Source of the DNA: Geobacter sp. | GTDB taxonomy: Bacteria > Desulfobacterota > Desulfuromonadia > Geobacterales > Geobacteraceae | Length of the DNA: 35,085 nucleotides | Assembly (NCBI GenBank): GCA_027356255.1 | Contig: DAIEGL010000197.1 | Coordinates: 1 to 35,085 of the forward strand | Direction: 5' to 3' | In this document: positions 1-1,666 of the stretch, piece after piece | Layout of the letters: each line of letters starts with the position of its first letter | Numbering within the stretch: position 1 is the stretch's first letter | The notes under the pieces: model-generated | The model's database searches: none | Seen by the model: only the letters and a program-made list of their open reading frames with translations | Told to the model about the DNA's origin: nothing | Position numbers and translations under genes: made by a program

Positions 1-510
1 GAGTGGGTGGTGCAGAGCCTGACCGAGTACGACGGCAAAAAACTGCACGCGATAGACCGTGGAGACCTGGAACTGGACACGGAAGAAGAGAAGAAGGAGA
101 AGGAAGCGAAGCAGGAAGAGGCCAAGAAGCAGTATCAGGGGGTACTCGGCTTCATCAAGGAACAGTTGAAGGACAAGGTAAAGGAGGTGCGCTTCTCCAG
201 CCGCCTCACCGACAGCGCCTGCTGCCTTGTTGCCGACGAGTACGGGCTGAACGCGAACATGGAAAAGATCCTCAAGGCAATGAACCAGGACGTACCCGAG
301 TCCAAGCGGGTCTTGGAATTGAACCCCGACCACCCGTTGATGCAGGTCCTGAGCAGCATCTTCGAGAAGGACAAGGAAAATCCGCGGCTGGCAGATTACT
401 GCGGACTGCTCTACGACCAGGCGCTGTTGACCGAGGGGTCGCCGGTCCCCGATCCGCTCCGTTTCACCAGGCTCGTTGCCGAACTGATGGTGCAAGCCGC
501 GGAGAAGTAA
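1..510 (+). CDS. htpG: Chaperone HtpG (Hsp90 family), C-terminal part
   Basis: This is the last 169 residues of a bacterial Hsp90; the reading frame is open to the left edge, so the ATPase and most of the middle domain lie outside the window. The visible part starts with a middle-domain end ([10 protein letters not shown]), passes through a highly charged Glu/Lys stretch, and continues into the C-terminal dimerisation domain with [15 protein letters not shown], the [13 protein letters not shown] segment and a closing helix near [11 protein letters not shown]. These are characteristic HtpG features and length to the stop is normal. HtpG is an ATP-dependent cytosolic homodimeric chaperone that remodels client proteins with DnaK. 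The ATG at 247 and the GTG near 7 are internal; the true start is upstream. No clear intrinsic terminator follows the stop. Confidence 0.95.
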
Positions 511-603: not shown

Positions 604-632
604 TTGACTTTTGCCGGTATCTGCATTATGGT
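604..632 (+). promoter_or_regulatory. Candidate sigma-70 promoter upstream of the riboswitch
   Basis: A TTGACT -35 element (604-609) is followed after exactly 17 bases by TATGGT (627-632), a 4/6 match to the -10 consensus. Transcription would start near 639, about 25-30 bases before the riboswitch aptamer, which fits a leader-RNA arrangement. This is a match by eye only; no start site is proven. Confidence 0.4.
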
Positions 633-660: not shown

Positions 661-750
661 AGTAGATAAACGATAATACCAAACCATCCGCGAGGATGGG
701 ACGGAAAGCCTACAGGGTCTCAAGACAGACAGCCGGGTCGCCGAAATATC
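661..750 (+). promoter_or_regulatory. GEMM-I riboswitch, cGAMP-type (GEMM-Ib)
   Basis: The leader carries the GEMM-I aptamer hallmarks: AAACC (681-685), a hairpin ccatcc/ggatgg (684-689 and 694-699) capped by a GCGA GNRA tetraloop (690-693), the tract ggaaagcc (703-710) that follows it, and a second variable stem (gtct/agac) before GCCGGGT. GEMM-I RNAs bind cyclic dinucleotides. In c-di-GMP aptamers position 20 (Vc2 numbering) is G; aligning the eight bases before AAACC puts A678 at that position, the change known from Geobacter GEMM-Ib riboswitches that prefer 3',3'-cGAMP. The 3' part of the aptamer (731-750) is also the 5' arm of a terminator hairpin, so ligand binding is expected to prevent termination and turn the downstream gene on. 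Class assignment is strong; ligand preference is inferred from one key base and the lineage. Confidence 0.9.
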
Positions 751-778
751 TCCATGATATTCTGCACCCGGCTTTTTT
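731..778 (+). terminator. Riboswitch-controlled intrinsic terminator
   Basis: agccgggt (731-738) pairs with acccggct (766-773), with an inner stem aatatc (745-750)/gatatt (756-761), and six T residues follow (773-778). The 5' arm overlaps the 3' side of the GEMM aptamer, so aptamer folding and terminator folding exclude each other. This gives a transcriptional ON-switch layout for the gene starting at 821. Confidence 0.8.
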
Positions 779-820
779 GTGCCCCGAAATATCTTGTGTA
801 ATTACAGGAGGTTCTCAACC

Positions 821-1666
821 ATGAATAAAAAGATACACAACATAGCCGTATTGATCGAATTCCTCGCCGGTTCCGGCCTTGCCATCTTTTTCCACTGGGT
901 GCTCCACTACCCTGAGGCCGCTTATACCATCTTCGGTGTCGGGATACTCCTGTCGCTCGGCACCTACCTTGTGCGAGAAGAGATAGAAAAGACCCGTGAT
1001 GGGCTGCTCGACCGGTATCACCAGGCCCACGAGGTAACCTTCGCCATGGCCCAGATCAGTGACCCGGAATGTCAGACCAAGGCACACGAGCTGATGGCCT
1101 CGACAATGCGGACGATCTCGCTCCTGCAGCAGGGTTATATCCCGATGGATGAGACGGAATTCTACCTTGAAGGGGCAAAGCAGATGGAGCAGGCGGTCCA
1201 CCACGCGAAAGCGGTGGACCCGCTCACCACGGGATGGGATACCCGGGGGGCACTGCTCAATTTTTACCAGTCCAACCTGCGCGCCCTGGACCGAGGCGTG
1301 AAGATCACCCGCATCTTCGTCGCCAACCGCGAAGCGATCACCGACCCAGAGGTGCAGAAGATCCTCCTCGCCCAGCACCACGACAATGTCGACGTTCGGA
1401 TCGCCTTCCGCGACGAGCTGCCGTCGGCAAGCGACATCAGCAACCGGGACACCAACAGCTCCTTCGATTTCGCCATCTACGACGACCGGGTGGTGACCGA
1501 CGTCTTCAGCCAGCCGGGGAAATACTTCGGCAGGAAGACAAGCCAGCCGGCGGAAGTGGCCAAATATCTCCACCTCTACGACCTCATCGAGCACAGCGCC
1601 CACGCCGTAACCCTGGAAAATGACCGTATAATCCTCGCCGGCGAGGTCATACCGGTCGCATCTTAG
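821..1666 (+). CDS. Unrecognised two-helix membrane protein under cGAMP riboswitch
   Basis: The ATG at 821 is preceded by AGGAGG (806-811), so this start is preferred over in-frame codons upstream that fall near the terminator. The 281-residue product has two N-terminal hydrophobic helices (about residues 6-24 and 32-50) with only a short loop between them, followed by a soluble, probably cytosolic region. A helical stretch (about 55-135) leads to an alpha/beta part with the pattern GALLNFYQSNLRALDRGVKI, TRIFVANREAI, then SSFDFAIYDDRVV. That arrangement recalls catalytically degenerate phospholipase-D-like folds, but no HKD motif is present, so the comparison is only a guess. I do not recognise the family. 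The only regulatory clue is the GEMM-Ib riboswitch and terminator directly upstream, which place the gene in a cGAMP regulon. It is monocistronic: the next gene is convergent. Confidence 0.85.
   Translation: MNKKIHNIAVLIEFLAGSGLAIFFHWVLHYPEAAYTIFGVGILLSLGTYLVREEIEKTRDGLLDRYHQAHEVTFAMAQISDPECQTKAHELMASTMRTISLLQQGYIPMDETEFYLEGAKQMEQAVHHAKAVDPLTTGWDTRGALLNFYQSNLRALDRGVKITRIFVANREAITDPEVQKILLAQHHDNVDVRIAFRDELPSASDISNRDTNSSFDFAIYDDRVVTDVFSQPGKYFGRKTSQPAEVAKYLHLYDLIEHSAHAVTLENDRIILAGEVIPVAS

Follow-up and report, generated by a model that had tools for sequence, protein, structure and literature searches.

Signalling by cGAMP governs the use of extracellular metal oxides in Geobacter, and its known targets in this genus are mostly cytochrome, pilus and polysaccharide genes. 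The GEMM-I riboswitch of Gmet_0970, from a close relative, favours cGAMP about 1600-fold in its wild-type form (PMC8835794), and position 20 is decisive there, the substitution A20G switching its selectivity from cGAMP to c-di-GMP (PMC6456294). A20 is not necessarily an absolute predictor of the ligand, since in G. sulfurreducens both cGAMP and c-di-GMP elicit a response from the GEMM-I element of the omcST operon (PMC6456294). The residues of the cGAMP riboswitch which contact the ligand are G8, A9, A11, A12, A14, C15, G40, A41, A42 and C75 (PMC6274999), and the riboswitch of pilM is an ON switch in which the terminator and the aptamer are mutually exclusive (PMC9262584).

In the current work, a scan of the whole window (the complete 35,085-nucleotide stretch of Geobacter sp. 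DNA that was analysed) with Rfam cmscan returned a single match, to RF01051 (c-di-GMP-I, GEMM-I), at positions 668-745 of the + strand, with a score of 50.2 bits (E 4.3e-7) against a gathering score of 35, and spanning the full model (positions 1-87 of 87). The sequence hallmarks listed in a first-pass annotation of this DNA are all present, namely AAACC, the GCGA-capped stem at 684-699, GGAAAGCC at 703-710, GCCGGGT at 732-738 and six T at 773-778. That annotation had assigned a riboswitch to 661-820; the assignment holds, while the element proper is confined to 668-778 and a conserved promoter falls outside the interval originally given (Table 1). With a probability of about 0.88, this locus represents a GEMM-Ib riboswitch which acts at the level of transcription, is ON in the presence of 3',3'-cGAMP and lies upstream of a PLD-like gene. 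The riboswitch itself belongs to a known class and is ordinary for the Geobacter group, the less familiar part being the conserved, unstudied membrane-protein gene that follows it.

Table 1 Coordinates of the riboswitch leader, its components and the adjoining genes
Feature	Position	Strand	Basis
htpG (HSP90), C-terminal part; upstream neighbour, outside the switch	1..510	+	Pfam HSP90, E 1.7e-38
Sigma-70-type promoter, TTGACT-17-TATGGT	604..632	+	9/12 consensus matches
A20-type GEMM-I aptamer, predicted to sense 3',3'-cGAMP (GEMM-Ib)	668..745	+	Rfam RF01051
Specificity base, equivalent of Vc2 position 20, A replacing G	678	+	Rfam alignment column 11
P2 stem, CCATCC-GCGA-GGATGG, with GCGA tetraloop cap	684..699	+	Direct reading; covaries in relatives
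P3 helix, 708-710/736-738 and 715-719/728-734	708..738	+	Rfam structure line; 94-97% of cells paired
Intrinsic terminator hairpin, 731-745 common to aptamer	731..773	+	Folding, covariation
Terminator U-tract, TTTTTT	773..778	+	Direct reading
Regulated gene, 281 aa (P0001)	821..1666	+	Two N-terminal membrane helices and predicted HKD-less phospholipase-D-like domain

Orthologs of the product of 821-1666 were gathered by protein alone, and 38 ortholog loci were compared, each with the gene start and about 400 nt upstream. A GEMM-I match is located just 5' of the ortholog and on the same strand at 22 of these loci, and was not found upstream at the other 16. Every one of the 22 linked leaders carries A at position 20, C adjoining it and a downstream terminator-like arm. 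The element is kept with or without htpG as neighbour, htpG being located upstream in only some of the element-bearing loci, and the linkage is therefore to the gene and not to a conserved block; given about 14 elements per 3.4 Mb genome, chance linkage is negligible. By chance, 0.7 promoter sites as good as that at 604-632 are expected in the region. A promoter-like site of the form TTGAC-N-TA...T is present 55-64 nt 5' of the aptamer in 15/22 orthologous leaders, and about 91 nt 5' of it in two further leaders. Some ortholog loci differ in their arrangement: a tandem GEMM-I is present in L052, while in L057, L059, L060, L081 and L082 a second GEMM-I element is located 3' of the ortholog and 5' of a lipoprotein-like gene (signal peptide, LAGCG), which suggests a larger cGAMP-controlled neighbourhood.

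One mark of the proposed ligand specificity is A678, which the first-pass annotation had regarded as the equivalent of G20 in the c-di-GMP aptamer. In the Rfam alignment this base indeed occupies model column 11 (Vc2 G20), where a G would have contradicted the assignment, and A is found at position 20 in 27/29 aligned elements. The adjoining pair is C679-G704, the consensus being G-C. Furthermore, when the published ligand contacts were mapped by our own sequence comparison, with GA(C/U)AAUAC and the conserved GCC close to the 3' end as anchors, the equivalents G672, A673, A675, A676, A678, C679, G704, A705, A706 and C741 were identical in 10/10 cases. Judged from these sequence features, the aptamer at 668-745 is likely to be selective for cGAMP, the most likely ligand being 3',3'-cGAMP.

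Across the 29 aligned elements, 97.6% of the cells in the aptamer helices are paired and four pairs are changed on both sides. Compensatory changes are scarce in P1, and 12 of the 29 sequences have lost its third pair, which counts against the proposed riboswitch, as does the lack of an upstream element at 16 of the 38 ortholog loci. Two further position pairs were noted in the same alignment. Positions 701 and 739 are A/C in 20 elements, G/U in seven and G/C in two, a pattern reminiscent of an isosteric exchange of wobble pairs by two bases on the junction side. Positions 676 and 746, of which 676 corresponds to the ligand-contacting A12 of the cGAMP aptamer, change in step: 23 elements have A at both and five have C at both. 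The observation takes in the same columns of L075, L088, L079, L081 and L015, the last being from the genome of the window; this non-standard pair may represent a pocket variant.

The assembly from which the window derives (3.4 Mb in 301 contigs, 85% complete) contains 15 GEMM-I matches, of which two identical ones at contig ends are probably one locus, leaving 14 distinct elements in this incomplete genome, ten with A20 and four with G20 as read from the aligned column. Judged by eye, the neighbours of other elements include a pilM-like gene, genes for a subtilisin-like protease and for a beta-barrel-like protein of the outer membrane and, following a tandem pair, a gene for a CxxCH protein. 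In the tandem pairs L010/L014 and L012/L013, located upstream of genes for c-type cytochrome-like or secreted proteins, each element possesses its own terminator. The element at 1501-1577 of L004 has A20 with an ordinary G-C adjoining pair, unlike the genome's remaining A20 elements, and its ligand is hard to predict. A candidate for the corresponding synthase is L044, which starts as a response regulator, ends as a GGDEF domain and carries GHLVGS in place of GHxxGD, thus with serine for the canonical aspartate; among PDB entries it matches GmGacA best (6d9m, E 1.3e-74). L044 is therefore a GacA-like Hypr GGDEF candidate by sequence, and the presence of its gene makes it likely that the genome encodes a source of cGAMP. 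A second possible non-canonical cyclase is the GGDEF protein L046, in which GHFAGT replaces GHxxGD.

Regarding the direction of switching, the 3' strand of the aptamer doubles as the 5' arm of the terminator, as previously noted: in the aptamer, the strand 731-745 (AGCCGGGUCGCCGAA) contributes the junction and the 3' side of P3, and in the terminator, whose helix comprises 731-738/766-773 plus inner pairs, it pairs with 756-773. The 731-779 segment folds at -22.6 kcal/mol with eight outer pairs. The tract of six T described in the first-pass annotation is present, with its first member base-paired to A731 and the other five left as unpaired U. In the terminator fold, G764 is the partner of C741, which corresponds to the ligand-pairing C75. 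A simple terminator scan misses 731-773, as its loop rule disallows an interrupted 43-nt hairpin, which is detected by folding. In the 29 elements the terminator helix is 90.3% paired with four pairs showing compensatory changes, a number reached by 0/500 shuffles, and sliding of the pairing partners abolishes the signal for the aptamer and terminator helices alike; the rows of this alignment are related, and the covariation counts are therefore to be read as support and not as probabilities. Because 731-745 is common to both structures, the two folds are mutually exclusive and the ligand should switch the gene ON, while an OFF-switch reading was rejected on account of the same common strand. 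The gene activation predicted earlier is supported by folding, by covariation and by the published ON mechanism of Geobacter pilM and pgcA (PMC9262584, PMC6456294), and transcriptional read-through should occur with ligand bound.

When the transcript was grown in silico, the aptamer-held fold remained within 0.3-1.8 kcal/mol of the optimum as far as position 767, with the terminator arm still unpaired, whereas at 773 the terminator fold was 11.7 kcal/mol better, with an arm pairing of 0.975. The decision is therefore made within a few nucleotides; the terminator would prevail without ligand, and bound ligand would have to act before about 769. In the mechanism we propose, RNA polymerase would initiate at the promoter 604-632 and transcribe the aptamer, and 3',3'-cGAMP would be made by the GacA-like Hypr GGDEF enzyme of the genome. 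If cGAMP is bound before the downstream arm emerges, the aptamer would retain strand 731-745 and the polymerase would continue into the gene that starts at 821; when no ligand is bound, this strand would pair with 756-773 and transcription would end at the U-tract 773-778.

An improbable alternative is that this GEMM-I ON switch is promiscuous, or senses chiefly c-di-GMP despite A20. In its favour, the element is scored by the c-di-GMP-I model, both ligands are sensed by the omcST element of G. sulfurreducens, and most GGDEF proteins of the genome retain the canonical GHxxGD and GG[DE]EF residues and can therefore make c-di-GMP. However, A20 and the adjoining C-G pair are retained in 22/22 orthologous leaders, the single A20G change in Gmet_0970 converts cGAMP selectivity into c-di-GMP selectivity, and the genome retains four G20 elements of its own besides, as though sorting had taken place between the two types. 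Far less credible still is that a decayed, inactive aptamer precedes an ordinary terminator, with no control by a ligand: the gene can do without the element, as the 16 loci lacking it illustrate, but the contact residues are all intact, the aptamer helices and the terminator covary, and promoter spacing and gene linkage are conserved.

The product of the regulated gene, P0001, matches no family above cut-off in Pfam or NCBIfam and nothing in the PDB by sequence; a Pfam match to Ribosomal_L1 (E 0.11) was rejected as chance. Hydrophobic stretches are present near residues 8-28 and 33-51. The AlphaFold2 model (pLDDT 76.8, pTM 0.61) resembles the PLD superfamily over residues of about 101-275, with Z values of 13-14 to Nuc, NucT, FAM83B and the effector domain of TrmB, the best structural matches reaching Z 14.5 and that to Nuc (1byr) having Z 14.1 and 3.0 A over 139 residues. 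A PLD-like fold is accordingly predicted from a model of moderate confidence. The HKD motif (HxKx4D; searched as H.K.{4,5}D) is missing from P0001 and 25 orthologs (26 in total), and PLD-type catalysis is therefore unlikely. We infer a binding role for this domain; as far as the predicted model indicates, the gene most likely encodes a protein that is anchored in the membrane and whose PLD-like domain binds without being catalytic.

Orthologs were found in 19/48 family genomes, with named carriers including Geobacter argillaceus, Geomonas silvestris, Geomonas limicola and Geomobilimonas luticola. The search, performed by short exact patterns which may miss some loci, returned none titled G. 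sulfurreducens or G. metallireducens. A literature search for GEMM-Ib with phospholipase D retrieved nothing relevant. It is conceivable, at slightly less than even odds, that the cGAMP regulon has in this protein a widespread member not described before, a sensor or scaffold of non-catalytic PLD-like type tethered to the membrane; it would be switched on by cGAMP in Geobacteraceae and is apparently absent from the two model species used to study the regulon. As a conserved, repeatedly riboswitch-linked and unstudied gene, it is a clear candidate for an unexplored part of the cGAMP response, and the conserved leaders are a ready-made set in which A20 aptamers can be compared.

Compared with non-catalytic domains of the PLD superfamily, the P0001 model aligns with FAM83B (5lzk; FAM83 DUF1669) at Z 13.2 and with the TrmB effector domain (2f5t) at Z 12.9, and Pfam DUF6879 gives a weak match in 2/26 orthologs. 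Unlike FAM83 DUF1669, TrmB and DUF6879, the domain of P0001 is joined to a pair of membrane helices at the N-terminus and belongs to no sequence family above cut-off. The c-di-GMP-I (GEMM-Ia) riboswitch Vc2 belongs to the same family, RF01051, and has the same fold, whereas here A replaces G at position 20 and the adjoining pair is C-G, that of Vc2 being G-C. The locus differs from the Geobacter GEMM-Ib riboswitches of Gmet_0970, pgcA (GSU1761) and pilM in that its ligand is predicted and its target gene is not named as a target in the literature examined, outside the founding 2015 PNAS papers. It shares with them the aptamer architecture, A20 and a terminator using the 3' strand of the aptamer, and, as with C741-G764 here, the C75-equivalent base of pilM is also taken up by the terminator. 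Finally, as in other Geobacter GEMM-Ib systems, the genome contains several copies of the element, including tandem pairs and one near pilM, together with a Hypr GGDEF gene.
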